The notes under the pieces were generated by a model. That model was not told the DNA's origin, ran no database searches, and saw nothing but the letters and a program-made list of their open reading frames with translations. 59,579 nucleotides of DNA, taken from the IMG/VR virus record IMGVR_UViG_3300010885_073914, positions 1 to 59,579 of that record; one strand, given 5' to 3'. Positions 27,601-59,579 of the stretch are shown in pieces; positions within the stretch are counted from its first letter, which is position 1; each line of letters starts with the position of its first letter. Position numbers and translations under genes: made by a program. The stretch comes from a virus.

Positions 27601-30600
27601 ATGAAGTGGAGGCGGATGCTACATTTTTAGTTATATCACCGACAGACTGAAGGATTGTGGCAATACCCTTAGACATACTCTCTGCTTCCGCAGGATTTAT
27701 AGTTGTTCCTATCTTGTTAGATGCTTCTTTTACCGCTCCTATAAATCCGACTATTGGGTTTATTAGAGCATTAAATGCCCTAGTGCCTAACCACATAAGA
27801 GGTATAGCCAACATAGCAGATGCGAAGAATAGGCCTAAAATAGATAGCCCAGCAACGGAAGCCAAAATAGATAGTGCTATTTTAGCTGCTCCGCCAAGTA
27901 TGGAGGAAACTCCTTCTACCACTTTTTTTATTTCATCGGAAGACAGCAAAGAACCAGCGATTGAACCAGCCATTTCTATTATCGAAGAAGCTAAAGATAG
28001 AACAACTGGTGTTAACGCATAAAGAGCTATTGCTCCACCTATCATTGCTGGTATTGCAGCTGTAGTTGCAGCTGCAAGGTAACCTAGTCCAGCTAGTCCA
28101 GCCATTGCAGCCATCACCGATACAGCTATTGCACCTGCTGCAGCTATTATTCCTGCAACTTGATAAGCGGTTTTAGCTGCTGTTGAAGCATCCATTTCTC
28201 TTGTTGCTAATATTCCTTTCATCATATTAACTAAGGCACTAGCTAGAACTACTATTGCCGGAGTAAGTATAAAAAGAGCAGCGGCACCGGCAGCCATTGG
28301 CCCAACATATGCCCAAGCTGTGGGTAACAATAGACCCAAGCCAGTTAATCCTGCTAAGGCTCCAATTATAGCCACAGATATAAGTGCGGTAGACGCTATC
28401 AATGCAGCAACGTCGTAAGCAACCTTAGCTGCTTTTCCTGCATCTACTCCCATTATTCCCAATATACCACTAATTAGTTTGTTTAGGGCTGCTGCTAAGA
28501 AAACTATAACAGGAGCTAGAATCATTAAGGCCATACCGCCTTTTATTATTTCTGGCACAAACTTTGAAGCATAATCATCTAAAAGGCCTAAGCCATATAA
28601 ACCGGCCATAGCTCCAATTACCGCCCCAGCAATTGCCGCCGTTCCGGCTATCAGTGCCGCAACTTTTCCTGTAACCGCTCCTATCGTTGATGCATCAAGT
28701 CCCATTATGCCTAATATAATCTGAGAAATCTTAACTATAGTGGCACCCAAAAGCACTAATCCTGGCCCTAGAATTAGGAGTGCTTTTGCTCCTTTCCACA
28801 TCAAGTCTTTTATTTTGTTTGGGTCTTTTAGTAGATCGTTGTCTGATAGCTTTTTAAATCCTTCTAAAGCCTCACTAGCAGCTAGTGTTAACGCCCCCGC
28901 AGCCGCTACTATGGCCGCTACGGTTCCAGCTGTTTCTGCAACGGTCGATAAGTCTAAACCAAAAGCTCCAACAATCATTTGAGCTAGTTTAACTATAGTT
29001 GCACCCAATAGAACCAAAGCGGGTCCAAGTATAAGAAGGGCTGCTACTGTTGATGCTAGGTCTTCACTAAATATTTCACTTATCTTTGGAAATTTAACTA
29101 TTTCTTGTTCACTTGTTAAAAGCTTGTAAGCTCCATAGCCAGCGGCTGCTATGGCTGCACCAGCAGCAGCTAAAGCCCCTACTGTACCAGCAGTCTGTAT
29201 TATTTTTGTAGCGTCTAGATTAAATGCATCCATGATCTTTCCAGATAAGAATACTATGGCTGATGCCAAGGCTACTGCACCGGCTGCTAGTACTAATATC
29301 CCTGCAGCGGTTTTTGCCATTTCCTTGCCACTAGAAATTAAATCATTAAGATCTATTCCAGCTACCTTTGGAACTTCAACTTGACTTATTCTTTTTTCTC
29401 TGGAGTCTATGTAAGACTGCTCAAGTTTAATTATATTTTTTGTTCTTTTTCCATTAGAAACTTCACTTATAAGTTCTTTTTTCTCTATCTTATTCAGGCC
29501 TTGCTGCTGCTTTATGTTTTTTATTTCTTGCTTCTTTGCCTGTCTCCAAACAGCAGGACTTACTCCCATGGTTTCTGCTTTTTGTTTGGCAGCTTGTCCC
29601 GAAGCTTTCCGAGCAGCTATTTCTTCTGGGGAAAGCTTTGCTCTTTTTGCTGCTTTACCTGCGGTCTGTTCCACTACTTGGGCTGGGGCACTCGCCTCAG
29701 GAGGCACTATCTTTCCCTCTTGTACAGTTATTGGTGTAAGGCCTTCTTGTATAGAAGGCATTGCTTTTTCTTTAGTTTGCTCGACCGTTTGTTTAGCCCC
29801 AGAACAAACACAGTCTGCTATTCTTTTCAATGTATCAAGCATAGAATTGTTTACACTTAGCAATTGGTCTTGCCAAGAGCTAGCAACTTCTTTAACAGTG
29901 TCTGGTCTTTTAGATCCTACAACCTTCGCAGCAGTTTCTTCTGCTTTTGAAGTAACTGTAGTCGCTGCCTTGCTAGCTTCATCAACTTTTATTGTTCCTC
30001 CAAGATCCGCAGCTACTTTTGGTCCAAATATAAAATCACGTAAGTCTGCGAAGGCTTTTGTAATAAACCCTCTTGGGTCCTGCATCGTGTCTTGGCCGCT
30101 GGGATCTTTGTATCTAAAGAATGTGTTAAGGAACGCAGCTGTGTCTTTTACAAACTCTTTGCCTTGTGAGAAAGATGACGCTACTCCGCTTATCGTTCCA
30201 ACAAGATAAAGTAACTCTTTTCCTATAAAACTACTGAACAAACCGGATATCAAACTCTTGCTTATATCTCTTAAAGTATCATTCATTTGAAGCAGCGTTT
30301 GATTCATTGAGCTTAATGGGTCTAGCTGGGCTTTTTGTGCTGTTGAAAGTTCTTGTTCTGCTTTTGATAGCTCTGACGTTAATTCTCTAAATTTTGTTTC
30401 GTCTTTAAGGGCGTCTTCTATTTTCTTAGAATCTATAGAAAGCTCTTTCTTTCCAGCCTTCTTGAGCCCTTCATTTAAAGTATTAACAGCCGTTTTTAGA
30501 GATGATCTGGCTACGTCTCTCTCGCTTGTCCATGCTTGCCCTATTGCTGCTATGTCCTCTTCAAACTCTCCTCTTCTCTTTCCAAACTTGGCTAAAGCCT

Positions 30601-32839
30601 CATCCATGCTTTTCGTGCCTTTAGCAGCTTCAGAAATAGCAGTTAATGGGGCTAGGGCCGCTGTTAGTTTGAGTCTTCTTTCGTCCTCAGCTATTTTGGC
30701 TTTTTCTTCTAGCGTAAGGTTTTTTGCTTTTTCTTTATTTAACTCTGTTAGTCTTTCTGCTAGAGTTCTTGACTTATTTTCTAGTGCTTCAATAGCACCA
30801 ACTAGTTCTCCTGATTCCATTCCAAACGCAGCCTTAAACCTCATGTTCAATAGTCGTTTATCCAGTGCAGACATATTTTCTAAGCTTGCTCTCATTTCTT
30901 CTGCATTACTTCCTGCTAAACCTAGAGCTCTTGCTTGCTGCATTAATCCACTATTAAATTGCTTTATATTTTTATTGCTTTTTAGTATCTCACCATTCCA
31001 CATTTCTTGTGTTAATCCGGCTCTGGCTGCTGCATTAGCAACTAAGGCTAAGGTTTGTGTGTCTGCTTCTAGAAAACCTGATGTTGAGCTTAAGGCTCCT
31101 AATAATTTGCCTCCCTCCACTCCTACTTTTTGAAACTCAGCCTGAAGCCCTATGACATTAGAAACACTTCCTGCCGTTGCTGTGCTTGCCTTTCTCATTT
31201 GATCAACAAACTGCTTGCTTGAATCAACAGCTTGCTTTAATCGATCCCCCACCACCCCAGAATCTCTTCCTACGTTTCTAATTCCCCTTCCCACAGCAGC
31301 TATTTGATCTTCATTGAACTTAAAAGAATTGCCGAACTCTAAAAATTGTTCCCCAAGAGAACCAGCCTCTACTCCTATTTGCTTTTCTGTGTTTAACTGT
31401 GCACTAACTAGGGAATTAAGCTTTTTCTGGTCTCTCAATCCAGACTTAGTTCCTCTTAAAAATGCTTCTTGAAATTTTTCTCTTGCAACACCTGTTCTTA
31501 TGGAGCTTTTTCCTATGTCTTCATAACTTTTTTGTAGAGATCGCGTTTCTCCTGTAACCCCAGCTGTTTCATATGCTGCCGCTCTTATATCTTGTACAAA
31601 CTTTCTTTCTTTGTCTATTAATCCTTCTATGGCTGTATTGAGAACCTCAAACCCTAATGTAAATTTTTCTAAAGCTGATATGGTTCTTATCTGAAGGTCT
31701 CTATTTCTTTGCTCTATGTCTTCTCTTCTTCTTTCTTGTCTTCCCGAAGCTTTTAGCCTTCTCGCTTCTAGTTGTATTATGGATTCCATAACACCTTTTT
31801 TCTCTTGGTCTGTTTTAAGAGAATCATCATCAAACTTTCTGCCAGATCTGGCATATGCTGCTCTGAACTTTTCGTTGTTCTGGTATGCGTCTTCGAAGCT
31901 TAACCCGCCAATTTCTTTGCGAAAGTATTTGACTATGTCATCCACATTTGTCGAATAAGATCCAGCCCATGATTTAATTTGTTTATCCGTTAAATCTGCT
32001 GCTCCTACTAGTCCTTTGAACGCTTTGCCGGAACGCAAACTTAGAAAAAAGTCTTTTGCGTCTTCAAGACTGCTTATTTGAATCTCAAAAGGTTCTGCTC
32101 GATCTAATCTTTCCATGAATTCTTGATATTCACTCTCATCAAAGCTTCTTATACGAGGCTCTCTTGGAACTCCAAAATCCACACTAGAATTTCGCTCTGT
32201 AGCACTTGCGGAAGCTTTTTTTGCGTCATCAAAAAAGGAATCACCTTTTATTTCACTTACTATGTCGCTTGTTTTTACAACGTCCGCTACGGACATTTTT
32301 TCTGCTATTTTTGTTAGGGTATCATATACTTGGTGAAGCCATCTTTCACAGTAAACGTCATGTGTGTACCCAGATCCTTTTTTGCTAAATACTTTATAGA
32401 GTCCTTCTGTGGACTCAGAGACTATTTCTCCTTGCTTGAAATCCTTCTTAAAAAAGTTTTTAAGACTAGCCATGAACTTTTCTGGAAATGTTTCTTCTTT
32501 TTGTTCGCTTTTTTCTCCTTTATCCTTCTCTTGTCCTTTTGTTCCTTCTTTCTTTTGCCCAATATCAGACAGCAGCGATTTTATTTCTTCTACAAGGTTT
32601 GCTTGCTCGCTTATGTCTTGACTATGTCCTTTTACATATTTTTCAAACGCCTGCACCAGTGGCCCGTAGTCAAATTGTCTATCTCCTGATGCTCCTTCTG
32701 ACGGCTTCTCTGTATTGCTAATTGGTTTGGCAGGACCTACCTTGCTTTTCATGAGGGTCCCGATAAGACCCTTCAGCTCACCAATGCTCATATTGGTGCT
32801 ATTGATTTTTCTACCCAGGTTGTCTAAAGCTTCTGTCAT
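18614..32839 (-). CDS. Giant tail tape measure protein, 4741 residues
   Basis: It is identified by extreme length, helix- and Ala/Gly/Ser-rich composition, hydrophobic segments and its place directly before the baseplate hub genes. The N-terminal ~150 residues are charged. Residues ~370-880 are coiled-coil rich. Several blocks of internal repeats fill residues ~1160-4450 and are listed separately. Hydrophobic stretches at ~1170-1650 and ~3790-4000 could insert in or fuse with membranes during DNA entry. If the usual rule of about 0.15 nm per residue holds, the tail would be about 0.7 micrometre long, many times T4 (590-residue gp29). No lytic transglycosylase or peptidase motif was recognised. 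The start ATG at 32839 is accepted without a strong ribosome-binding site. Confidence 0.9.
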   Translation of the reverse strand: MTEALDNLGRKINSTNMSIGELKGLIGTLMKSKVGPAKPISNTEKPSEGASGDRQFDYGPLVQAFEKYVKGHSQDISEQANLVEEIKSLLSDIGQKKEGTKGQEKDKGEKSEQKEETFPEKFMASLKNFFKKDFKQGEIVSESTEGLYKVFSKKGSGYTHDVYCERWLHQVYDTLTKIAEKMSVADVVKTSDIVSEIKGDSFFDDAKKASASATERNSSVDFGVPREPRIRSFDESEYQEFMERLDRAEPFEIQISSLEDAKDFFLSLRSGKAFKGLVGAADLTDKQIKSWAGSYSTNVDDIVKYFRKEIGGLSFEDAYQNNEKFRAAYARSGRKFDDDSLKTDQEKKGVMESIIQLEARRLKASGRQERRREDIEQRNRDLQIRTISALEKFTLGFEVLNTAIEGLIDKERKFVQDIRAAAYETAGVTGETRSLQKSYEDIGKSSIRTGVAREKFQEAFLRGTKSGLRDQKKLNSLVSAQLNTEKQIGVEAGSLGEQFLEFGNSFKFNEDQIAAVGRGIRNVGRDSGVVGDRLKQAVDSSKQFVDQMRKASTATAGSVSNVIGLQAEFQKVGVEGGKLLGALSSTSGFLEADTQTLALVANAAARAGLTQEMWNGEILKSNKNIKQFNSGLMQQARALGLAGSNAEEMRASLENMSALDKRLLNMRFKAAFGMESGELVGAIEALENKSRTLAERLTELNKEKAKNLTLEEKAKIAEDERRLKLTAALAPLTAISEAAKGTKSMDEALAKFGKRRGEFEEDIAAIGQAWTSERDVARSSLKTAVNTLNEGLKKAGKKELSIDSKKIEDALKDETKFRELTSELSKAEQELSTAQKAQLDPLSSMNQTLLQMNDTLRDISKSLISGLFSSFIGKELLYLVGTISGVASSFSQGKEFVKDTAAFLNTFFRYKDPSGQDTMQDPRGFITKAFADLRDFIFGPKVAADLGGTIKVDEASKAATTVTSKAEETAAKVVGSKRPDTVKEVASSWQDQLLSVNNSMLDTLKRIADCVCSGAKQTVEQTKEKAMPSIQEGLTPITVQEGKIVPPEASAPAQVVEQTAGKAAKRAKLSPEEIAARKASGQAAKQKAETMGVSPAVWRQAKKQEIKNIKQQQGLNKIEKKELISEVSNGKRTKNIIKLEQSYIDSREKRISQVEVPKVAGIDLNDLISSGKEMAKTAAGILVLAAGAVALASAIVFLSGKIMDAFNLDATKIIQTAGTVGALAAAGAAIAAAGYGAYKLLTSEQEIVKFPKISEIFSEDLASTVAALLILGPALVLLGATIVKLAQMIVGAFGLDLSTVAETAGTVAAIVAAAGALTLAASEALEGFKKLSDNDLLKDPNKIKDLMWKGAKALLILGPGLVLLGATIVKISQIILGIMGLDASTIGAVTGKVAALIAGTAAIAGAVIGAMAGLYGLGLLDDYASKFVPEIIKGGMALMILAPVIVFLAAALNKLISGILGIMGVDAGKAAKVAYDVAALIASTALISVAIIGALAGLTGLGLLLPTAWAYVGPMAAGAAALFILTPAIVVLASALVNMMKGILATREMDASTAAKTAYQVAGIIAAAGAIAVSVMAAMAGLAGLGYLAAATTAAIPAMIGGAIALYALTPVVLSLASSIIEMAGSIAGSLLSSDEIKKVVEGVSSILGGAAKIALSILASVAGLSILGLFFASAMLAIPLMWLGTRAFNALINPIVGFIGAVKEASNKIGTTINPAEAESMSKGIATILQSVGDITKNVASASTSLASMPVYGGFWNWLIGSKISDRMWDGVRALKDLMAPIIAYVSAVKLFSGVVGRIVDPREAKPMGEGVSSILQSCASITDSIFKSAEPLKKMSKYQGFFNWLRGKTVGDMVDSGVDALKNLSGPITRYVAAIKAFSSKVGGTLSPRMAAEMAVGVEDILCAVGGVSRIILKNKENLSGIKYKEWGWFGTNYVKQMNSGAVALEKMSEPVLSYVAVIKRFSKRLGRRLNPRLAASMANGVAEIISGTGEVTKKVLETREELSKIKTSTGWGWFRKDYVKKSREGVKALKELSGPIIEYVDTIKGFSSEVGRKLDVRQAASMARGVAEILGASGDVTEKIVATKDKLVKVKTSEGFWLWATNIPDAMNKGVKALGELKLPIINYVSSITDFSKEVGSKVKPQEAKAAVKGLQQVAGVVEVFSCVLNHLKDRINPLTKSGWFVDSPIEQMVKAKKEMDKFFPVLAQFINSMIQNVSSSFKNVGELKATVKNLSSISQIFQKVGETVAVIREKIVPITKSGWFSGSDVEAIKGAIPKFNGFFVSISKFITDGIVGPISNIDDGSKLKESAKKLVGVSQLLKETSSSMSSLQSMIGLTTDGFFSSSPMKTISANKDKFTQYFAGVSGFINSGILEPIKKITNAEGLVEAGAKLKDIGCFIYGIKLILDNLSGVFSLMESKSIFEKAPLEKIRINKDQFSKYLETAKDFVLSGLLKPSLELPSEEITVGANNLKQTAYLLAGVPVVIKGLVGAVSLAVDKDDFFGETPMKKIADSKGAFSAYFKEIAAFVRDGIALPVKKELDGIDLAGSSKTMSAMSNIVASVVPIIKNLTGVMGMMSGETVDKLDTDFPIDKILSYKNLFADYFKKIAVFLRDGIVIPVKEVFPDTKGIRQASSTLSAMNNIVSSVPRVILGMSKGFVPLVESGQDLSKEVPMEAIINSKEKFAKWFFEIAHFLKDGVVNPINNVIGDPKEIRKAGSTLSAMSNVVGSMSSIIKNLAQMFVGLNERECLREAPAELIASQIEKFSGWFYSIISFLKVGIINPVNALVPDAKEMDGVRVKLRVLTASMSAIPEMFDELGGSISLFSKGFLWRIINGFKISKLSKNFISMANIINEGIVKPIQKFLPSSDELSEVNDQLTEFIMIIEKVASTMGLAGRAFLGIKPMDLDGIVSMKEGVQKVSDPKVFEAEVQKAIRGRSEMAINMAEKQAEAAAIVALSKKTGRTDLSGVEVDTQVDMEKKVVKAVARWSKENHDDALEVRAVNEGINAGAGGPGRSALPAAATPKKGQITPQPKTAEASEALKGASKKKEPIRVEAVERYEFNDAEERNDAIESATMLAKAEILKAIKGVSGENYSIGPEVLSGVKYKSKAQWMKDHGEAKVEAEYIPKFAEGGVVSKATLGVIGEAGPEAVVPLSGIEKYSSGIISGLYEINSTLKKILSQITKSGKKAFTSSISRGEAGSFDEGDAPVTNTFLDIGKGALSVGLGVALAPAISKMLESFKKSMADIVKVVSGSSKNNTPAKGAAASEGSGILGTLYSIGEGLFSMIPSFESNPADCCGAVAESADGLFGSLKNNLPRSIVDKSTSAFEGVKSRSGKAFSEMSSYFSSSFAPLTKGFTRSMNAGEGIFTSLSRGIQSQYMSITKGKSVSEMAQGAFEQIKSSGVKAFNYINSNIPQSWKENASKAFSTINNKIPQSVKDTSAEAFKVIKEKGSKAISSVGGYLSSSFAPLTKGFTRSMEAGEGIFKSLSRGITSQYMSITKGKPVSEVISNSFSQIKDNGIKAFETIKSKIPQSWKDNAGKAFSSVKDGGIKAFNYISNKIPQSVKDNAAKAFGTIKDVGGKALSSAGSYLSSSFAPLTKGFTRSMESGAGVFQSVSRGITSQYMSITKGKPISEIAKGAFDQIKDGGSKAFSYISNNVPQSLKDNAAKAFNVVGGYASKAFSGMSGFFSSSFAPLTKGFTRSMEAGEGVFKSLSRGMTSQFMSLTKGKSISEIAGNAFSSIKEYGKKGMTLAGGALKGLKEKAQGGISSAGGAVKSLFSKKAGPEGAVASVGAPTAAVAPVENVKKIGEAGESVKGNFEGVKEALKNLAEGLKSFANKESFLGALNLIPTGIGLTAMIPGFLGAKLIEKTDGKKIAASLGGLAEGLKSMASGKVLLGAGAILLSSIGLLGLLPALPGLAILGAMSGLVTSGLTALSTGLTSFGSAAANPMMWLGILAIAGLGAALIPLGYALSTLSPLVAAFGGVISTVLGGISGIITAVADGMVNFLGAVSLEKAAGLVGIAGGLVVLSGAIIAFSAATAAAGWISFFGGNSSTLDNIVRLADAGPNLNTFAQALTTITGALSAFEESLANIDGIESGLNRLIEVAINLGSVAPMLEILSSLPAIGQVATPTATVESAAIPAIGQVATPIATVESAAIQETQTRQMTPTNFKSQFTDEWSEKYHPAPGPGTVSATSEIESSLAQKKETGLSVTSPTAAVESSLVQSKQTDATSVSPVQNTEKAVLASAGKAEGKEKGVFDIGSMGNTINSGLKAVFVDLPVMIGGLLISGLKAVFVDLPVMIGGLLISGLKAVFVDLPNLVLSGLGSLGSIILSGLKMVFMGIPKMIGKFVLGGLKFVLSDLPQMIMSGLGSLASLALAGLQAVFVKLPTMLLSALGSLGSVVLNGIKAVFVTLPSLLGGLIISGMKAIFFDLPVWLGKTIFDGITSLLSAIPGAMYNALYAAASAVNAGWIVEGLFGGGTKKSATSKESTTNVETPTAKAESSLAANVEAPTNKVESSLSDVAVQETRKMTPTNFKSQFTDEWSEKYHPAPTENLSGKLSSPESIRHIDEVVSGRNLSYGSIKESHIGNAMPGTSLEAAIPSQVESVGGKPSTTVPVAVSTASPTAANRANIEQKLMKDKASLSPAKSEVVSPELGALTTETEEQTVVLNQMKELFEQFLEMLKPKSQASTGEGGEPGSTVPKNVVGKPTNYYRRVSGNVGQGPGKATVNLGAKAVS
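19480..20040 (-). repeat. Tape measure block E: 19-residue repeats (57 bp)
   Basis: Near-identical 57-bp units at about 19880-20010 encode SGLKAVFVDLPVMIGGLLI. Diverged relatives (GLKMVFMGIPKMIG, GLQAVFVKLPTMLL, GIKAVFVTLPSLLG, GMKAIFFDLPVWLG) continue to about 19500. They make an amphipathic hydrophobic array near the C-terminus. Confidence 0.85.
20350..20465 (-). repeat. 54-bp direct repeat in the tape measure gene
   Basis: Two nearly identical 54-bp units encode IPAIGQVATPxATVESAA. The nearby peptide TPTNFKSQFTDEWSEKY also occurs twice in the gene (about 20270-20345 and 19180-19250), each followed by a Pro-rich linker. Confidence 0.85.
21620..22841 (-). repeat. Tape measure block D: four copies of SSSFAPLTKGFTRSM units
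   Basis: SSSFAPLTKGFTRSM occurs four times (near 22790, 22420, 22035 and 21750), each followed by [SQ]LSRGITSQYMSITKGK-like sequence and then IPQSxKDNAxKAF. Spacing is about 290-390 bases. DNA identity between units is high, so the expansion is fairly recent. Confidence 0.85.
24200..26400 (-). repeat. Tape measure block C: ~90-residue repeats
   Basis: About nine units. Each has SAMSNIV or similar, then SGWF, KSIF or DDFF, then a Lys- and Phe-containing helix (KFxxYFxxIxxFIxxGIxxPI). They could represent stepwise growth of the tape measure by unit duplication. Confidence 0.78.
26400..27780 (-). repeat. Tape measure block B: ~70-75-residue repeats
   Basis: Six to seven units share [P/A]xxAxxMxxGVxxIL, a short linker with W (WNWLIG, WGWFG, WGWFR, FWLWA), then GVxALKxLxxPIxxYVxxIKxFS. 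They follow block A directly and lie in one frame of the tape measure gene. Confidence 0.8.
27900..29360 (-). repeat. Tape measure block A: hydrophobic ~85-residue repeats
   Basis: About five diverged units of about 80-95 residues. Each has a pattern like ALLILGPALVLLGATIVK, then GLD or GVD, then an Ala-rich helix ending GLGLL. They alternate long hydrophobic helices and may form membrane-active or tightly packed hairpins. Similarity is at protein level; the DNA is diverged. Confidence 0.75.
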
Positions 32840-46799: not shown

Positions 46800-47552
46800 T
46801 TATTTGCCTATTGTTTCCTCAATCCATTCTTTGTATCTACTAATTCTTGTATGGCAACTTTCATCTCCGTAATTCGAATCCGTGTTTCCATCCTTTGAAA
46901 GAACTGAGGAATTCACACCTGCGAGCATTCCGTCTATAAATAGGCCGCCTCCACTGTCGCCATGAGATATTAAAAATTCCAACTCAGTTGGATTCTTCCT
47001 GTTCATAACACAGAAAACCGCACCATCTGAAACTGCTTCTATCTTATTAGAGCCAGCTCTTTTTACGTCTCCTTCTTTTTTAGAGCCGGTTAGTCCTGTT
47101 CCTGTTCTGCCGAATCCTGCTATACCACATGTCTTTCCTATTTCATCTTTGTTTCCATAAAGTTTTGGATAATGCGAAATTTTAATTTTTCCTTTTACTT
47201 TGCACAAAGCCAAGTCTCCTGGCCCGAAGTCTCCTTTAAAATCAGGACACATGAAGGTTTCTTGTATTGGTATTTCTACTCCTTCAAAAAAGACGCATGT
47301 GCTTTTGGCGTCTTTTACAACATGGCCTGCTGTTATAACCCATACTTCTGATATGGCCGTGCAACTTCCAAAATATTTTATTTCTTTTCCTTTTTCTTCA
47401 AGAGTGCCACCTAATTTAAGAACGCACTCATGTTCTTTTCCGTATTTTAGGTATCTTTCATCCTGAACGTCGTGTCTTATTGTACCACCAAAACTAACTC
47501 CACTTAAAGCAAGCAATAAAGTTGCTACACTGATTATTGTCGTTTTTTTCAT
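46800..47552 (-). CDS. Secreted trypsin-like serine protease (S1)
   Basis: 250 residues. Signal peptide MKKTTIISVATLLLALSGVS then GG. Catalytic triad in the right order: VITAGHVV (His77), GDLALCKV (Asp113) and SHGDSGGG (Ser200). The WVITAGH, GIAGFG and DGAVFCV features match the S1 fold; several Cys allow disulphides. The product is expected in the periplasm or outside the cell. AAGGAG upstream, with a late-type ACTAAATA box ~57 bases before the ATG. In a phage it could cut host envelope proteins or mature virion proteins; role not known. Confidence 0.88.
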   Translation of the reverse strand: MKKTTIISVATLLLALSGVSFGGTIRHDVQDERYLKYGKEHECVLKLGGTLEEKGKEIKYFGSCTAISEVWVITAGHVVKDAKSTCVFFEGVEIPIQETFMCPDFKGDFGPGDLALCKVKGKIKISHYPKLYGNKDEIGKTCGIAGFGRTGTGLTGSKKEGDVKRAGSNKIEAVSDGAVFCVMNRKNPTELEFLISHGDSGGGLFIDGMLAGVNSSVLSKDGNTDSNYGDESCHTRISRYKEWIEETIGK

Positions 47553-49540: not shown

Positions 49541-49579
49541 AAAATTATGTATGCTGCCAATGGTTTTTTTGGGTTTTTG

Positions 49580-49587
49580 TATAAATA
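49580..49587 (+). promoter_or_regulatory. Late promoter TATAAATA
   Basis: Exact T4 late consensus TATAAATA, 5 bases before ATG 49593. The expected +1 coincides with the start codon, and there is no Shine-Dalgarno site. Confidence 0.65.
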
Positions 49588-49592
49588 TTCTC

Positions 49593-49862
49593 ATGGAACT
49601 CCCATTCTCAGAAAAAAGCCTAGGGAACAACAACTTCATTAGAACCTTTTCTAGCGATGTTGATTCGCATGAGCTCAAATGGCACAGAGACAAAGAAGAT
49701 AGGACTGTTACGCCCTTAAACAAGAATGACTGGCTTTTTCAGCGAGACAATGAACTACCCCGTCCTCTGGACAAAGAAATCACTATAAAAGCAAATGAAT
49801 GGCATAGGGTAATAAAGGGAACAAGCGAATTAGTAGTGAGAGTCTTAAAACATGAAAAATAA
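49593..49862 (+). CDS. Conserved-type phage protein with WHRD motif
   Basis: 89 residues (start 49593, MELPFSEKSLG). The pattern NFIRTFSSDVDSHELKWHRD, EDRTV, NDWLFQRDNELPRPL and EWHRVIKG is one I associate with a small cupin-like protein of T4-like marine phages. Three His and several acidic residues could hold a metal. Leaderless start suggested by the TATAAATA box. It overlaps the caspase-like gene by 11 bases, so the two are coupled. Confidence 0.65.
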   Translation: MELPFSEKSLGNNNFIRTFSSDVDSHELKWHRDKEDRTVTPLNKNDWLFQRDNELPRPLDKEITIKANEWHRVIKGTSELVVRVLKHEK

Positions 49863-50805
49863 AATACTAATCATTGTGTGTTTGTTGTTGGCTTCAATTA
49901 TATTGTTTTCCAAGAATGGAAGCTTTTATGGAGCAAAAGAAGTTGGACTCCCTTTCGATGTTAACGACAAAGACAATAACCGGGCTCTACTCTTCACAAT
50001 GACAGACGAGTCAGGCAGAATGAGAAATATAGATTTGATGCGAAGCGTTTTTGAAAACGGCAAGTTAGGATTTAAGTGTGAATACTATCACAACAAAACT
50101 TCTTCTTACATTTATGGAAAAATCAAAGAAACGGTTAAGCAAATGGATCAAGACGGAACCCTTCTTCTTTACCTAAACAGTCATGGCGGTGGTTCTGGGA
50201 AGAATTTTGGTATGACCACTAATGGAGGATGGTTTAAGTTTGGTGAGGTTCTTAAATCAATATCATCTGTTAAAAAAATAAAAAGGCTAATAGTTCTTGT
50301 TGATACATGCCACGCGGAAGGAGCCATTAATGAGGGCTTTGAAGGCGGCGGCAAACTAATTAAGAACGTGAACACAATGATGGTGGAGCTCCCAGATAGT
50401 TATGGTCGTTGGCCAAACCCTTCTCTTAGGATTCCTTCTTTTATGAGGTTCTTCGAGAAAGACAACAATACATTTTATTATGGAGAGAATAGTGAAGCAT
50501 ATGAAGAAGCTTTAATAATCACATCATCAAGTGCCCAAGATCTATCTATGAGAGGAACTTTTGCTTCAAACTTTAAGAAAGCTTTTGACAAGGTAAGCTC
50601 CCAAGAAGACGTAAAAGTAATAGACTTCTTGAAGACATTTGCTTTATCACACTCACAAGGAGGCCAGCAGCCATACTACAAATGTATACCAAATTCTATA
50701 TTGAATGAGTCCCTTTTTAAAGGCTTCCCTGCTAGGTCAATTCCAATATCCGATAAAAATGATTCTAGTTCTTCATTCAAAAGAGATTATATTTTGGTGC
50801 CATAA
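49852..50805 (+). CDS. Caspase-like cysteine protease (peptidase C14 / metacaspase type) with N-terminal membrane anchor
   Basis: 317 residues. Residues 1-20 are a membrane anchor or signal peptide (KILIIVCLLLASIILF). The catalytic dyad is plain: GTLLLYLNSHGGG with His111, and LIVLVDTCHAEGA with Cys153, 42 residues apart as in caspases and metacaspases. An upstream strand RALLFTM and helices fit the p20-type core. The C-terminal ~100 residues continue helically with KKAFDKVSS. Expected in the periplasm or at the membrane. The ATG overlaps the WHRD gene. Substrate unknown; caspase folds in bacteria often act in cell-death or defence systems. Confidence 0.8.
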   Translation: MKNKILIIVCLLLASIILFSKNGSFYGAKEVGLPFDVNDKDNNRALLFTMTDESGRMRNIDLMRSVFENGKLGFKCEYYHNKTSSYIYGKIKETVKQMDQDGTLLLYLNSHGGGSGKNFGMTTNGGWFKFGEVLKSISSVKKIKRLIVLVDTCHAEGAINEGFEGGGKLIKNVNTMMVELPDSYGRWPNPSLRIPSFMRFFEKDNNTFYYGENSEAYEEALIITSSSAQDLSMRGTFASNFKKAFDKVSSQEDVKVIDFLKTFALSHSQGGQQPYYKCIPNSILNESLFKGFPARSIPISDKNDSSSSFKRDYILVP

Positions 50806-50807
50806 TA

Positions 50808-51677
50808 CTAAAGGTTAGATACAAAATTCTTAAAAGTACTGTTTGCTAAAGTGAAAAGCTTCTCTGTTTCATCCATTAAGTCGTTCACTTCACTGTAAGA
50901 AATACCATATCCAAAAACAACGCATCTGACACAATCATTTGGAACGTTTATTCCTGAATATACACACTGTCTAACTATTGGGTCCAATAACTTCGACGTG
51001 TCTTCCTTGGGATGTGTTTTGTTAAATTCAATTAGGCTATCAGGAAGAATAGGTAAAAGATTACTTTTTTCTTTATCAAACTCTCTGTAGTCTGATCCGC
51101 CGTTATTTCCATGACCAAAAAATCCTGCGTACTTTCCCTCCAAATGGTTCTTTAAAAGCTTAATGTTCTTTTCATTCTTTTCTATTGCTCTTGTCTTTTT
51201 GCTATTCTTTATGTCGTCTTCTCCCAACATATCTTTTGCTTCATCTGCTGTTATCGTGAGGCTTGCACAAACGAGTCTGTCAAAGAAACTCTTAACCACG
51301 CTGCTGCAAGCACTCCAGTTGATGGGTGTGATTACAAAAAAACCATCACATTCTTCTAGTTTCTTATAGACATCTTCTTCATGCATTAGATCCTTTGGAT
51401 CAGATTTCTTGCTATAGCAATCACAGGGCCAATGACAGTGAAAGCTGCTAGTGCTTGTACATCCTTTGCACGGCAGAACGTTTATACCGTCACATTTAAC
51501 AGATAAGTCTATGGTTTCAAAAGATACCGAATCTTTAAAATCTTCTTTTATCCTGTTAGCTAATTTGTGCGTCTTGCTTAACTCGTCAGGACAGCAATTA
51601 GAAGATCTGGCGGATCCTACTATTAGGACAACCTTTTTTTTATTCTTGGTTTTTACGAATTCTAGAAATGTTGACAT
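50808..51677 (-). CDS. NAD(P)H-dependent FMN reductase / flavodoxin-fold protein with targeting-like N-terminus
   Basis: 289 residues. After a targeting-like start MSTFLEFVKTK, a flavodoxin-like domain begins KVVLIVGSARSSN (FMN phosphate loop). A Cys-rich insertion follows, PCKGCTSTSSFHCHWPCDCY, as in oxidoreductases with a Cys-cluster; then ECDGFFVITPINWSACSSVV and KSFFDRLVCASL, as in NADPH-FMN reductases. The C-terminus from ~190 is longer than the family norm and has KYAGFFGHGNNGG. A redox role in the infected cell or injection as cargo is possible. Its start is close to the divergent hydrolase gene. Confidence 0.72.
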   Translation of the reverse strand: MSTFLEFVKTKNKKKVVLIVGSARSSNCCPDELSKTHKLANRIKEDFKDSVSFETIDLSVKCDGINVLPCKGCTSTSSFHCHWPCDCYSKKSDPKDLMHEEDVYKKLEECDGFFVITPINWSACSSVVKSFFDRLVCASLTITADEAKDMLGEDDIKNSKKTRAIEKNEKNIKLLKNHLEGKYAGFFGHGNNGGSDYREFDKEKSNLLPILPDSLIEFNKTHPKEDTSKLLDPIVRQCVYSGINVPNDCVRCVVFGYGISYSEVNDLMDETEKLFTLANSTFKNFVSNL

Positions 51678-51715: not shown

Positions 51716-52507
51716 ATGAAGATACTAGTTTGCGACCCATCGTTTTATCAAATAGATTATGAAATTAATCCCTGGATGAGTGTGTCACATAAGGCGGACA
51801 CAAACTTAGCTATTCAACAATGGAATACACTCATAAATGAATTGCTGGGACTGGGAGTTGATGTAGTAAGAATACCACCTCAGTCCGGTCTGCCCGACAT
51901 GGTGTTCACCGCCAATGGTGGAGTAATGGCATATAATTATGTTATTTTGTCCAACTTTAAACACAAAGAAAGGCAAGATGAAAAAGAGTTCTTTAAGAAG
52001 TGGTTTAATGAAAACGGCATTAGAGTTATAGAAATCAGCAACGGCATTAGATTTGAAGGAGCGGGAGATTGCCTTGTAAAAGACCATACGGTCTTTATGG
52101 GATACGGATTTAGAACTGACCAAGAAGCTTATTACGATAACATTTGGGATGTTTTGGATATGAGGTCTTTTAGATTAAGACTTTTTGATCCGTACTTTTA
52201 CCACCTTGATACTTGCTTTTGCCCATTAAACAAAAATCAGATTCTTATTTACCCTGAGGCGTTTGACAAAAACGATCTAGTGAATCTGAGAAGAAATAAT
52301 TTTGAGCTACTCTGTGTTCCTAAAGAAGATGCTCATAAGTTTGCATGTAATGCCGTTCTAGTGGGTGACCATATTTTGATTCCAAAAGGCTGTGATGAGA
52401 CTAGGGATATACTTACTCAAAACTACTATATTGTTCACGAACTAGACATGAGCGAGTTTATCAAAGCCGGTGGGGCTTGTAAGTGCTTAACTATGGTCGT
52501 TGGCTGA
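51716..52507 (+). CDS. Dimethylargininase/arginine deiminase-superfamily hydrolase
   Basis: 263 residues, usual length for DDAH-type enzymes. Visible active-site motifs: GLPDMVFTANGG (Asp61, Asn67), FEGAGDCL (Glu114, Asp118), YHLDTCFCPL (His163, Asp165) and the C-terminal GGACKCLTM with the nucleophile Cys257. The fold cleaves or transfers guanidino groups of arginine derivatives. The substrate of a phage enzyme is unknown; arginine or methylarginine are candidates. It is followed by an MscL-like gene on the other strand, overlapping 3' ends by 17 bases. Confidence 0.8.
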   Translation: MKILVCDPSFYQIDYEINPWMSVSHKADTNLAIQQWNTLINELLGLGVDVVRIPPQSGLPDMVFTANGGVMAYNYVILSNFKHKERQDEKEFFKKWFNENGIRVIEISNGIRFEGAGDCLVKDHTVFMGYGFRTDQEAYYDNIWDVLDMRSFRLRLFDPYFYHLDTCFCPLNKNQILIYPEAFDKNDLVNLRRNNFELLCVPKEDAHKFACNAVLVGDHILIPKGCDETRDILTQNYYIVHELDMSEFIKAGGACKCLTMVVG

Positions 52508-52925
52508 GAATGTCTTTTATTTCTAAAAGAGTTTTTTCCTGCAGAGTTAGCTCACCTTCTTCTTTTTCCTGCTCGAATACACAATATAACAATTTTTGAA
52601 TAAGTAAAAACAAAAATAGAGATACAATCAAAAAAGTAATCATGTCAGCAAAAAACAACCCAAAAGGAATGTCTTTCCCACAAAAGGTCACTTTCCAGTT
52701 TTTATAGCTTGATTCAAAAGGCAATAATATACTCACTATAGGCATTAAAACATTATCTACTAAGCTAGATATTATCTTGTTGAAGGAACCACCTATTATT
52801 ACTCCAACCGATAAGTCTAAAAACCTTCCTCTGAAAACGAACTTTTTGAACTCTTTTAATAAGTCAAAAGCCTCTCTTCTAGAAATTAGTTCTTTATTCA
52901 ATTGATTGTTATGCCTATATCTCAT
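52491..52925 (-). CDS. mscL: Large-conductance mechanosensitive channel (MscL family)
   Basis: 144 residues from ATG 52925 (TTG 52904 gives 137 residues and would avoid overlap with the divergent gene; neither has a ribosome-binding site). The first helix EFKKFVFRGRFLDLSVGVII is the classical MscL motif, with GGSFNKIISSLVDNVLMPIV as pore helix. A second helix at ~90-110 (FADMITFLIVSLFLFLLIQK) and a charged C-terminal bundle (EGELTLQEKTLLEIKDIL) follow. MscL opens under membrane tension to release solutes. In a phage it might guard against or cause osmotic lysis. Confidence 0.85.
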   Translation of the reverse strand: MRYRHNNQLNKELISRREAFDLLKEFKKFVFRGRFLDLSVGVIIGGSFNKIISSLVDNVLMPIVSILLPFESSYKNWKVTFCGKDIPFGLFFADMITFLIVSLFLFLLIQKLLYCVFEQEKEEGELTLQEKTLLEIKDILSQRP

Positions 52926-53510
52926 AAAAACAAAATTATTTTTATACACATTCCTAAAAATGCTGGTACCTCTATTGTGGAGTCAAAAGAGTTAGAGTTC
53001 TCAACAGTAGGCCACCAATGCTTTTCACACTACAAAGATAGATATCCAGTTCAGTGGGAAAATTATACAAAAGCTTGTATAGTAAGAAACCCTTGGGACA
53101 GGTTTGTTTCATGCTATGAATATGCAAGGATGACAAAAAGTTATTGGCACTCTAACGAAGGATACCCCTCTAGTAAATTTGGGCCACACCCTGATTACAA
53201 GAAAGTCAAAAATCTTTGCTTTGAGGGTTTCACAAGAAAGTTCTTTAACAAAGAACTTAATCTGAGTCATCCATGCTGGGCTCCACAAAAGAATTGGGTG
53301 TTCTCAGAGGAAAAACTAATGGTAGACGAGGTGTTTAGACTAGAGAGCATAGAAGATAACAAAAAGTTTAAAGAAATTTTTGGTGTTATAGAAAAGCTTA
53401 ATCAAAGCAAGAGGTCCGAATATAGGTCCTACTATAAAACAAAAGAGTCTATAGACATAATAGCGGAAGCCTATAGAGATGATATAGAATTTCTTAACTA
53501 CTCTTTTTAG
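52911..53510 (+). CDS. Sulfotransferase-family protein
   Basis: 199 residues from ATG 52911 (a TTG at 52902 is possible). IIFIHIPKNAGTSI (residues 9-22) is the 5'-phosphosulfate loop for PAPS. CIVRNPWDRFVSCYEYAR (57-74) holds the 3'-phosphate-binding Arg and Ser. HYKDRYPVQW and LNYSF complete a Sulfotransfer_2-like fold. It would transfer sulfate from PAPS to a glycan or other hydroxyl. Its 3' end overlaps the convergent Gly-Ser gene by 17 bases, and its 5' end overlaps the MscL-like gene. Confidence 0.85.
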   Translation: MPISHKNKIIFIHIPKNAGTSIVESKELEFSTVGHQCFSHYKDRYPVQWENYTKACIVRNPWDRFVSCYEYARMTKSYWHSNEGYPSSKFGPHPDYKKVKNLCFEGFTRKFFNKELNLSHPCWAPQKNWVFSEEKLMVDEVFRLESIEDNKKFKEIFGVIEKLNQSKRSEYRSYYKTKESIDIIAEAYRDDIEFLNYSF

Positions 53511-53814
53511 CCTTATTCTTTCTTTTTCTTCTCCAAGGCCAATATCCATAAAGTCCACAACACCCATAGGGTTTATTTGCAACGTCGGTCGTTTTTGTTC
53601 CCCCAGAATTGTTGCCAACGACAGATCCGGTACTTCCACCGGTACTTCCACCGGTACTTCCACCGGTACTTCCACCGGTACTTCCACCGGTACTTCCACC
53701 GGTACTTCCACCGGTACTTCCACCGGCACTTCCACCGGCACTTCCACCGGCACTTCCACCGGCACTTCCACCGGCACCGTCTTCTGTTATTCTAAGCCAC
53801 TTCTTGAAATTCAT
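53494..53814 (-). CDS. Small targeting-tagged protein with GGSA/GGST repeats and basic tail
   Basis: 106 residues. The N-terminus MNFKKWLRITEDGAG has the shared tag and an I-T-E site. Then come four GGSA and eight GGST units, and a C-terminal tail with PYGCCGLYGYWPWRRKRKN rich in aromatic, Cys and Arg/Lys residues. Layout: tag, flexible linker, basic head. The 65-residue protein at 56471 has the same layout. It may be a DNA-binding internal head protein (inference). The frame is confirmed by the conserved N-terminus; an overlapping frame on the same strand gives only PVEV repeats. Confidence 0.65.
   Translation of the reverse strand: MNFKKWLRITEDGAGGSAGGSAGGSAGGSAGGSTGGSTGGSTGGSTGGSTGGSTGGSTGGSTGSVVGNNSGGTKTTDVANKPYGCCGLYGYWPWRRKRKNKAKKSS
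53629..53772 (-). repeat. 12-bp tandem repeat, 12 units (GGST/GGSA)
   Basis: Eight GGTACTTCCACC units followed by four GGCACTTCCACC units on the plus strand, encoding GGST and GGSA on the minus strand. Units within each group are identical, so copy number is probably variable between isolates. Confidence 0.95.
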
Positions 53815-54731: not shown

Positions 54732-54880
54732 ACTCCTTTATTAAATGGTTAGAACAAAAACATCCGGAACTTTTCTCTGCTATAGAAATTATAAAAGAAC
54801 CAAAAAGAAAAAAGTCTAACATTAAGCACGATGGATGGAAGATAGTAAAAGACCACAAAGAGGCTGACAATGCAGTTTAA
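54728..54880 (+). CDS. Small protein with targeting-like N-terminus, 50 residues
   Basis: ATG 54728 overlaps the upstream stop by 4 bases and has GAAGG in front. The product begins MNSFIKWLEQKHPEL, a W-L variant of the tag, and is basic in the C-terminal half (EPKRKKSNIKHDGWKIVK). It ends 11 bases inside the next gene. Function unknown. Confidence 0.6.
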   Translation: MNSFIKWLEQKHPELFSAIEIIKEPKRKKSNIKHDGWKIVKDHKEADNAV

Positions 54881-56444
54881 AGATTGGATTCTAAATGAGG
54901 AAATATTTCCCAATAAAACTGCTACGGTGTTTCATAGAACTAAAGATATAAACTATGTTGAAAGAATTTTTCGTTCTGGTTTTAAACCAGGTGGTGGGGC
55001 AATGTATGGTCCGGGTTTGTATACAACATTTGACCTACGCAGTCAGTTTAAACCTCAAATGAGTCTATATGGTGAGTTTGTTATAAAATTTAAGGCAACT
55101 AATTTAGACAAGTACTTAATTACTTCTTTTAACGTTGCTAAATATGTGTTTGGAAGAAACTATAAAATAAGTGACCAGTTTAAATCTTTTGGTTGGAGTC
55201 AAACAATAAGACCTAAAAGCATGGACGTTGAAACCTATGGTACTGGGTTTGAAGAATATGACCTTTTACAAAAAAGTAGCACATACAGCAGCGATCTGGC
55301 TTTTAAAATATATGAAGAAAATAGATGGATAGCACATAGTTTAACAGGCTTGATATACAACGGAAGACAAGACGGCTATTGTTTAGTTAAGTATGAACCT
55401 ATTAATGACGGTTTAGTTATGGTGGGATACGCTCAAGCTCCTGTTAATGATCAAAATAAGCTACAAGAACTAGAAGCTAATGAGGGATGGATTACTTCCA
55501 ATAGATCCGGAAAGATAAAGCACATGTACAGCAAGGCTGACCTTTGGAACTCAGGAAGAAACACCATAGATTCTACAAAGGCATTTAGGCTGTCCAGAAA
55601 CAGCTTCCAAGAAAAGCTAGAGGACATTCTAGAAGACTCTAAAGGCTCTGTAAAACAAGATAAAGAAGGCGTTCACTTGAAGAGGCTACAGTGGCTTTTG
55701 ATTAAAGAAGAAGTCGATGAAGAAAAATTAATTTATATTATAAGAAGGTATCCTAATAAAGATATTGTTAAAACCACTGTCTTAACCCTTGCCAAAAATA
55801 AACCAAATTTGATAACTAAAAAGCTTGTAGAAAATTTAGATCACTCAGCTTATGATACTTATGGATTATATTCTATCATTATAGACCTTAATAGCCTTCT
55901 TAAGGAAGATGTTATTGAATCGATGATATCAGCGGCTAATAATTTCGGAAAAAATAAAAAGCCTTTTCTCAAATCCTTAGCAGAAAAACAACCAAGGCTA
56001 TCACATAAAAATGTACTCTTTTTAATAAAGTGTTATGGAGTCTTTGGCGGAGGGAACTACGATTCAGCGGTAGACATAATAAATTTTATGGGCGAATTAG
56101 GATATTTTTCCTCTTTAACGTTTAAGATAATTGATTATGTCTTTGATGATATTGTTAGCGATTTAACATCTTCTTTTAGCTTCAAAAAGACAACAGGCAG
56201 ACCCGATGACTTTGGTATTATTCAAATAGTTAAAGCTTTTGCATCTCATAAATCTATGAGTTTGACCGAGCTTTCCACCCTAATCAGATCGGCTTATAAC
56301 CTACTTTATTCACAAGATGAAAGAAGTGAACAGAGTCTTAGAAAATTTACTATAAAGGTTGCTAAAAACTTAGAAGGCAATGAGACCTATAGTAGTTTTA
56401 TTAGCAAGGTTTTGAGCCCAAGAGGTCTTGAGGCGGTTTCATAA
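54870..56444 (+). CDS. ADP-ribosyltransferase-like protein with targeting-like N-terminus
   Basis: 524 residues, GAGG upstream. MQFKDWILNEE carries the shared tag and an L-N-E site. Residues ~18-130 look like a PARP/ART-type fold: TVFHRTK (His22), a GFKPGGGAMYGPGLYTTFD block (the Tyr-containing G-x-Y-T motif) and later KFKATN. The third catalytic residue cannot be fixed by eye. The C-terminal ~280 residues are helical repeat-like (IRRYPNKDIVKTTVLTLA ... LNSLLKEDVI ... HKNVLFLIKCYG), possibly a HEAT-like binding scaffold. T4 Alt is a head-packaged ADP-ribosyltransferase, so an analogous injected enzyme is a fair guess. Confidence 0.6.
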   Translation: MQFKDWILNEEIFPNKTATVFHRTKDINYVERIFRSGFKPGGGAMYGPGLYTTFDLRSQFKPQMSLYGEFVIKFKATNLDKYLITSFNVAKYVFGRNYKISDQFKSFGWSQTIRPKSMDVETYGTGFEEYDLLQKSSTYSSDLAFKIYEENRWIAHSLTGLIYNGRQDGYCLVKYEPINDGLVMVGYAQAPVNDQNKLQELEANEGWITSNRSGKIKHMYSKADLWNSGRNTIDSTKAFRLSRNSFQEKLEDILEDSKGSVKQDKEGVHLKRLQWLLIKEEVDEEKLIYIIRRYPNKDIVKTTVLTLAKNKPNLITKKLVENLDHSAYDTYGLYSIIIDLNSLLKEDVIESMISAANNFGKNKKPFLKSLAEKQPRLSHKNVLFLIKCYGVFGGGNYDSAVDIINFMGELGYFSSLTFKIIDYVFDDIVSDLTSSFSFKKTTGRPDDFGIIQIVKAFASHKSMSLTELSTLIRSAYNLLYSQDERSEQSLRKFTIKVAKNLEGNETYSSFISKVLSPRGLEAVS

Positions 56445-56470: not shown

Positions 56471-56665
56471 ATGAACTTTAAAAAATGGCTGAATTTAACT
56501 GAAGTTGGCACTATGGCGTCCGGCCCAACAGGCGGCGGGGGCGATATAGCTCCATTTAAGGCGCCTATGGGATGGGGAGTTATAAGAAGAAACTGGCCTG
56601 CTATTGATCCCTTTTTCACTCAAAAAAGCAAGAAAAAAAGGTCTAGAGGGGTTGAAAAGAGTTAA
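56471..56665 (+). CDS. Small targeting-tagged basic protein, 64 residues
   Basis: MNFKKWLNLTEVG has the tag and an L-T-E site, nearly identical to the start of the 53814 gene. A Gly-rich linker (GPTGGGGDIAPF) is followed by an aromatic and basic tail (GWGVIRRNWPAIDPFFTQK, KSKKKRSRGVEKS). Short leader with ATAAAATA just before the ATG and no Shine-Dalgarno site. Likely a paralogue in layout of the Gly-Ser protein; possible DNA-binding internal protein. Confidence 0.6.
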   Translation: MNFKKWLNLTEVGTMASGPTGGGGDIAPFKAPMGWGVIRRNWPAIDPFFTQKSKKKRSRGVEKS

Positions 56666-57879: not shown

Positions 57880-59579
57880 ATGAAAATAAGGTCTTTAGCT
57901 GAAAATCAAGTTCGGGTCGCCATGCAAAATGGCTCACCCAGGATGCAACAAGGAGGTAAGTCAAAGGACCCCGGTGGTAATGCACCTTGTGGTTCAAAAA
58001 ACGGAGAGCCTATACCAGTCGAAGACTTTACAACAACAAACGAATACGTAGACAAGTTCGATCCCGCTAGCGGATGGGCGGGGGAGGTCACAAATGGAAA
58101 CGGTACAAAAGTTCCAGTGACGCCGCTTCCAGTGACTCCAAAAGATATAAATGACTGGATCCAACAGCAAATAGCAAACTACTTCACAGTACAAGGTCAA
58201 ACACCTCCAACGCAAATACCAAACCCTAGGTTTCCTATAAGGTTTGTTAATGGAGCCTGGCAGGGCCAGAGCCCTCAGATGAGCCAGTTTTTAACTGCTC
58301 TTTTTAATGCCTTTGGTTTAAATCCTCAACAATATCCCAACGGAATGAACCAGACCCAGTGGGATAATTACACAAATGGCGTTAAGACAATTGTTGAGAA
58401 TAATTACAAGGAACAGTATTGCAAAGAGTGGCTTGCTGAAATGAATAAAATCGTAGCAAGGGACAAAAAGCATTGCGGCAAATTAGGGTACGCAGTCGTT
58501 AAATCCGACACAAAATACTACAGCAGCGTGTGTGGATGGTGTCGAGATAAACAAGATGTAATATGTAATAAATGTAACAGTCCATCTGACTGCGTAGAAG
58601 TTGGTTCGTCACTTTCTTCCGAATGCTATGATTGTAAAAAAACTGAAGATTATTACATAAGGAGATGTCTTGTTAAAGACCCCCTCCCAGAAAATTGTGT
58701 TACGCCAACTCCTACAGTAACAGTCACAGTGACTACGACACAAAGGCCCCGATTTTGCTCTGATATTGGAGCTTCCTGTCAAGACCTGGGATACGAAGCA
58801 AACTGTTCATGTAAAAATAGTCAAGGGCAACCGTGCGGTGAAGGAGACGCTGCTTGTGAGTGTAAGTGTGAATGCGACTGCTCAATTATAGACCAAACGG
58901 GCGGGGTAGGAACTGGTTTGGATGCAAGCTGCAGAACTGAGTGTTGTTGCGATAAACCCGGAGAAGTCAACCAATATAAGAACACCAGGTTCTGTACAGG
59001 TGGGGCTGGTTTTATGGGAATCCTCTCGCTCGATTACGAGTGTGGTGTTACACCAACTCCAACGGTTACCCCAACAGAAACGCCAACGGTCACGCCGACT
59101 GAGACTCTAACTCAGACCCCAACTCTCACACCAACAGAAACACCAACAGAAACACCAACAGAAACACCAACAGAAACACCAACAGAAACACCAACAGAAA
59201 CACCAACAGAAACACCAACAGAAACACCAACATACACTCCTACATACACTCCTACAGAAACACCAACAGTAACTCCTACAGAAACACCAACAGTAACTCC
59301 TACAGAAACACCAACAGTAACTCCTACAGAAACACCAACAGTAACTCCTACAGAAACACCGACTGAAACACCAACAGAAACACCAACAGAAACACCAACA
59401 GAAACACCAACAGAAACACCAACAACAACACCAACAACAACACCAACAACAACACCAACAGAAACACCAACAGAAACACCAACAACAACACCAACAACAA
59501 CACCAACAGAAACACCAACAGAAACACCAACAGAAACACCAACAGAAACACCAACAGAAACACCAACAGAAACACCAAC
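57880..59579 (+). CDS. Cysteine-rich protein with TPTE repeats (partial, runs off right edge)
   Basis: Open from ATG 57880 to the window end (566 codons). GGAAGG lies ~11 bases before the ATG, rather far. N-terminal ~190 residues are globular ([13 protein letters not shown] ... [15 protein letters not shown] ... [14 protein letters not shown]). Then come ~30 Cys in ~190 residues (for example [24 protein letters not shown]), typical of disulphide-rich or metal-binding domains. Then a Thr/Pro stalk of TPTE and TPTV units runs to the edge. It resembles a surface adhesin or fibre with a mucin-like stalk, but the tag-like N-terminus shared with the 57371 peptide may mean virion packaging. The C-terminus is outside the window. 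Confidence 0.75.
59043..59579 (+). repeat. 12-bp tandem repeat ACACCAACAGAA (TPTE) to right edge
   Basis: Long array of ACACCAACAGAA units encoding TPTE, with variant units ACTCCTACAGAA, ACACCAACAGTA and ACACCAACAACA. It continues off the edge, so its full length is unknown. Confidence 0.95.

Follow-up and report, generated by a model that had tools for sequence, protein, structure and literature searches.

Sequence analysis and structural modelling show that large phages encode an exported protease of the caspase fold. The gene lies in the stretch of DNA analysed here (the window), which at 59579 bases is an entire IMG/VR record. We tentatively propose, at a little under an even chance, that its product is a competent clan-CD protease which is exported via Sec, activates itself and trims host envelope proteins, likely for superinfection control and possibly for egress.

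The caspase-like gene and its predicted fold

The gene is an ORF of 317 aa with an ATG start. Its features, together with two genes nearby, are the following:

46800–47552 (−): trypsin-fold protease with a signal-peptide-like N-terminus (Pfam Trypsin, E=5e-15)
49551–49862 (+): upstream WHRD-type ORF, probable start at 49593, overlapping the start of the caspase gene by 11 bases
49852–50805 (+): exported caspase-fold (Peptidase_C14-like) cysteine protease, from Pfam, 20 related loci and the AlphaFold2 model
49861–49911 (+): N-terminal hydrophobic signal/anchor segment, residues 4–20, mean hydropathy 3.41, without an AxA-type cleavage site
49984–50418 (+): p20-like catalytic half, beta1-alpha1 to beta4 and the start of the linker, residues ~45–189 (model secondary structure; Pfam C14 match over 55–261)
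50182–50184 (+, CAT): catalytic His111 in the motif NSHGGG, invariant in 17/17 family members
50302–50304 (+): Asp151, at position −2 relative to the catalytic Cys, invariant in 17/17, at the place of the S1-pocket Asp of metacaspases and MALT1 (PMC4357240)
50308–50310 (+, TGC): catalytic Cys153 in the motif DTCHAEG, invariant in 17/17 and the sole Cys conserved in the family
50362–50364 (+): Lys171 in the p20/p10 linker, candidate self-processing site, Lys or Arg in 17/17
50500–50706 (+): p10-like half, beta5, alpha4, alpha5 and beta6, residues ~217–285 (model; structural matches reach 291–293)

The original prediction of a caspase-like protease, with His111 in SHGGG and Cys153 in DTCHAEG placed 42 residues apart, is borne out by the location of the ORF and of both codons, by Pfam, by conservation in the family and by the model. 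Pfam PF00656 (Peptidase_C14) matches the window protein with E=7.1e-9 and 36.1 bits against a cut-off of 21.4, and individually matches 14 of the 17 family members. PHROGs, PADLOC and NCBIfam give no above-threshold match for the window protein. Among the 17 members, the NCBIfam EACC1-type caspase profile finds 14 (best E=1e-5), with the window protein at 15.2 bits, far under the 140-bit cut-off, and the PADLOC 'caspase' profile finds weak matches in four (best E=0.01), the window protein not being one of them.

Across the alignment of 17 sequences the window protein is 43–53% identical to the other members. The residues Glu53, Asn109, His111, Gly112–114, Arg145, Asp151, Thr152, Cys153, His154, Ala155, Gly157 and Arg234 are invariant, so that the catalytic pair and its neighbours are fixed while flanking positions vary. 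Catalytic residues that vary among relatives, or a predicted structure lacking the caspase fold, would have refuted the original prediction; neither result was obtained. Our AlphaFold2 model, built from the 17 sequences, has a pLDDT of 72.7 and a pTM of 0.72, with a confident core and a linker (~166–194) and C-terminus that are not confident; it supersedes an earlier low-confidence prediction from three sequences. The model begins with a helix (2–21) formed by the hydrophobic segment. His111-Gly112 follows strand 103–109 and Cys153 follows strand 143–151, at the ends of beta3 and beta4. Past the catalytic Cys are beta5 (217–224), helices 236–248 and 256–265 and a strand (275–279), which place p10-like elements after the linker; p10 has no match at the sequence level. 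Orthocaspases, the prokaryotic p20-only type, are defined by the lack of a p10 domain. Best Foldseek matches to the model are caspases, metacaspases, MALT1 and the bacterial caspase-like GSU0716, with E down to 4e-7, and VIA-align gives Z ~17 over 183–211 residues with caspase-7, procaspase-6 and the Candida and yeast metacaspases. A complete caspase (caspase-haemoglobinase) fold is thus predicted for the window protein.

With the enzymes of family C14B in MEROPS clan CD (metacaspases, orthocaspases and MALT1) the phage family shares the caspase fold, the His-Gly and Asp-x-Cys motifs, an Asp at −2 and, in the model, p20- and p10-like halves. However, it is phage-encoded and exported, and identity in the structural alignments is 13–14%. 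The metacaspase motif is D-x-C-H-S-G, whereas the phage family carries DTCHAxG. Within C13 (legumain and GPI transamidase), GPI transamidase resembles it in topology and in the HGG...DTC region, with a profile match at E=0.009, and Pfam C13 (PF01650) matches 11 of the 17 members weakly. However, the window protein scores 14.5 bits with this profile, under its 22.8-bit cut-off, and C14 scores higher. In a library of viral structures, Foldseek returned giant-virus caspases and one uncharacterised phage protein. The former (Heterosigma akashiwo virus metacaspase, pithoviruses and mimivirids) are virus-encoded caspase folds and the best matches in that library, but they belong to eukaryotic viruses and show 9–14% identity; the phage family forms its own, exported group. 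The latter, A0A8S5MXG5 of Myoviridae sp. ctWaE18, is the one clear structural match from a tailed phage (E=2e-4, TM ~0.4), with 11% identity. A literature search for phage-encoded caspases found none. The fold and family are already known; of a branch that is specific to phages and exported, the searched libraries and papers contain no example.

Phage lineage, inheritance and gene neighbourhood

The phage origin of the record is supported by its other genes. A gpJ/gp6-like baseplate protein is encoded at 12119–13672 (TIGR02243, E=1e-34), and a gp25-like protein (weak TssE match) and a hub-like protein are also present. An uninterrupted ORF of 4741 aa (18614–32839, −) occupies the tape-measure position and would mean a very long tail. 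Together, the baseplate, gp25-like, hub-like and tape-measure genes indicate a contractile-tailed phage. In IMG/VR the window gpJ has 306 relatives, the longest of their records reaching 532 kb, and its identity to the gpJ of LR756511, a metagenomic phage record of 595 kb, is 44%; the phages of this lineage are large to huge.

Single-sequence scans of viral contigs, phages and plasmids returned no relatives of the window caspase, and Pfam C14 by itself missed family members in two large records. The family was reached by way of the baseplate protein, which led to kin phages and among them to two records with a C14 gene; alignment scans then gave 11 and finally 20 related loci in IMG/VR, with 17 distinct proteins including that of the window. 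Among the tailed phages of the phage collection none matched the family. gpJ is present on the same record in 14 of 19 caspase-bearing records, and caspase and gpJ distances are correlated (Mantel r=0.85, permutation p=0.0001, 12 records). The dN/dS of close caspase pairs (0.024–0.043) indicates that the gene is under strong purifying selection. Because caspase divergence tracks baseplate divergence and dN/dS is low, we regard this as an old, vertically inherited and functional phage gene and not a stray acquisition. A cellular origin was considered and rejected, since neither a GTDB genome scan nor 296 Bacteroidota genomes contained a close homologue; the single weak, partial match in cellular genomes is an exported-looking Bacteroidales caspase. 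The gene is absent from related-gpJ records of 340, 532, 254 and 595 kb, which may be incomplete.

No gene adjoins the caspase gene in all loci, and its neighbours vary without a conserved partner. In 9 of 16 loci a patatin-like phospholipase is encoded no more than 10 kb away, glycosyltransferase-like genes recur in the region, and the trypsin-fold protease is found near the caspase in the window, L085 and L099. A homologue of the mechanosensitive channel MscL lies at 52491–52949 (−) in the window (TIGR00220, above cut-off); MscL homologues occur in the caspase region of four loci; in L096 and L098 one stands right beside the caspase gene. Upstream of the caspase in L104 lies the gene for a secreted thioredoxin-like protein. 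At the loci examined no defence partner gene stands beside the caspase, and no endolysin, holin or spanin was identified next to it.

The gene had also been described as coupled to the leaderless WHRD gene and hence probably expressed late. The 11-base overlap is real, but among the loci it recurs in one relative only (L085). The sequence TATAAATA is present at 49580–49587, before the WHRD start. However, it occurs five times against 5.07 expected, so a T4-like late promoter before the coupled gene was rejected and late expression is statistically unsupported. Apart from Shine-Dalgarno-like sequences, no other motif was found upstream of window genes. In four related loci (L088, L089, L090 and L094), 7-mers of the TATATAT type are strongly enriched just upstream of start codons (8 against 0.23 expected), a pattern suggestive of a phage promoter that yields leaderless transcripts.

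Of the 403 ORFs at the caspase-bearing loci, 52 begin with the motif M-x(1-3)-F-x-x-[WFY]-[LIVM] (typically MNFKxWLxxxE), where its frequency inside ORFs predicts 1.4; a few of the 52 are incidental, such as signal peptides. In the window it is carried by the ORFs at 53494–53814 (−), 54870–56444 (+), 56471–56665 (+) and 50808–51677 (−), and there are many instances in L085–L104. In our judgement the motif resembles the capsid-targeting sequence of the internal head proteins of T4; if it does target the capsid, these phages would pack dozens of proteins into it. Judged by its start, VFHRTKDINYVERIFRSGFKPGGGAMYGPGLYTT, the 524-aa product of 54870–56444 seems to carry an ADP-ribosyltransferase domain like that of T4 Alt; Pfam gives no clear match for this ORF. 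At 53340–53814 a 12-base repeat (12 copies, 99% matches) is open in several frames, and encodes Gly-Gly-Ser-Thr repeats in a motif-bearing ORF and Val-Pro-Val-Glu in another. At both of its ends the record runs into long tandem repeats (1–801 and 59055–59579; a 33-base unit in 22 copies and a 24-base unit in 19), probably where the assembly stopped.

Export and predicted cleavage specificity

The original prediction placed the protease behind a membrane anchor. The hydrophobic N-terminus is real, and for the window protein and its relatives in L084 and L085, which lack a plausible cleavage site and form a single clade (support 100/97), an anchor is likely. However, 14 of the 17 members look cleavable and secreted: their N-termini open with a short basic stretch, followed by a hydrophobic core and a plausible site for signal peptidase I. 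The anchor is thus likely a trait of this clade inside a mostly secreted family. A strict script pattern flags fewer signal peptides; the rest were recognised by eye (e.g. LFA|EVK, IFA|QDK and VFS|QEK). Judged from these N-termini, the anchored and the secreted forms would both put the protease outside the cytoplasm. The restriction of conserved Cys to the catalytic one also suits an exported enzyme. Cleavage is predicted mostly before Gln-Glu/Asp-Lys-Thr-Gly. Bacteroidota typically have Gln directly behind the signal peptide cut, which is only a hint of a Bacteroidota host.

At the second position before the catalytic Cys, caspases have Gln; metacaspases and MALT1, whose cleavage follows Arg or Lys, have Asp there (PMC4357240). 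The phage family has Asp151 in 17/17 and therefore differs from metazoan-type C14A enzymes, which combine Gln at −2 with a basic S1 pocket for P1 Asp. Of the acidic S1 pocket of C14B, Asp151 is present, while the alpha1 position (Asp95 of metacaspases) appears from the alignment to be Asn59. In a profile alignment, which is loose around there, the invariant Glu53 faces an Arg of an ancestral caspase. In our reading this is the Arg of loop L1 that binds P1 Asp; Glu53 opposite to it would again be an acidic residue instead of a basic one. Expectations of P1 Arg/Lys are tempered by the apparent Asn59 at the place of the second S1 acid and by GPI transamidase, which also has Asp at −2 (DTC) and does not cut after basic residues. 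On balance, these residues argue weakly to moderately for cleavage after Arg or Lys. Position 171, 18 residues past Cys153 and within the linker, is a candidate site at which the enzyme may cleave itself.

Proposed role of the protease during infection

The course of events we propose is as follows. In the infected cell, this lineage of large myophages would make the caspase-fold protease and send it through Sec. In most relatives the signal peptide would be cut and the enzyme released into the periplasm, while in the clade of the window it would remain fixed in the inner membrane with its outward side carrying the protease. Once beyond the cytoplasm, the enzyme would probably be activated by a self-cut in the linker between the halves, near residue 171, and go on to cleave proteins of the host envelope or surface, with Arg or Lys as the probable P1 residue. 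The remodelled envelope would most likely keep competing phages from adsorbing or from delivering their DNA, and possibly ease egress. What the analysis shows is the gene, its catalytic dyad, its conservation and selection, the predicted fold and, from sequence, an export signal in relatives; activity, self-processing, P1 preference, substrates and purpose, including envelope trimming for superinfection control or egress, are what we infer. For huge phages, a published study reports proteins with a predicted place in the membrane or at the surface of the host, which may affect infection by other phages (PMC7162821).

It is possible, if unlikely, that the protease chiefly aids lysis, degrading envelope proteins late in infection so that very large virions can exit. 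Export, as read from the N-termini, is compatible with such a role, and the MscL homologue, the patatin-like phospholipase and the second exported-looking protease of the region are all able to weaken membranes. However, lysis is essential, yet several of the large relatives lack the gene; no lysis gene was identified adjacent to it, and late expression lacks statistical support. An accessory role in host interaction fits this patchy presence better, which favours a superinfection-type function over an essential lysis function.

We consider it distinctly improbable that the enzyme matures exported proteins of the phage itself, such as its secreted neighbours or the trypsin-like enzyme at 46800–47552. 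Exported-looking neighbours, including the thioredoxin-like protein of L104, would be available as substrates, but no exported partner is conserved across all loci, and head maturation is cytoplasmic.

Slightly less probable still is a part in counter-defence, either by cutting a defence protein of the host that is accessible in the inner membrane or the periplasm, or as an effector captured from a caspase defence of the host. Defence systems of bacteria employ caspase-fold proteases, and the PADLOC and EACC1-type matches within the family recall these. To our knowledge, however, known caspase-type defences act in the cytoplasm, and export argues against a cytosolic defence role; a defence partner gene and a close cellular relative were both absent from the loci and genomes searched. 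Among the roles originally listed, superinfection control and lysis or egress are therefore compatible with our results, whereas countering a cytosolic defence fits poorly.

That the protein is not a protease and uses the caspase fold for binding only is very improbable: inactive bacterial homologues exist, the pseudo-orthocaspases (PMC6426788), but in these exactly the catalytic His and Cys are replaced, the residues which with their neighbours are invariant in the phage family amid variable flanks.

The reading we prefer is that of envelope trimming by an exported, self-activating protease. Caspase-fold proteases of bacteria are discussed mainly as effectors of host death and defence, and the present family shows this fold in use by phages. 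We suggest, with some reserve and as somewhat less than an even prospect, that a phage-specific exported branch of the fold remodels the bacterial envelope from outside the cytoplasm, in the service of the phage and not of host defence. Such a role would point to envelope proteolysis as a step in infection.
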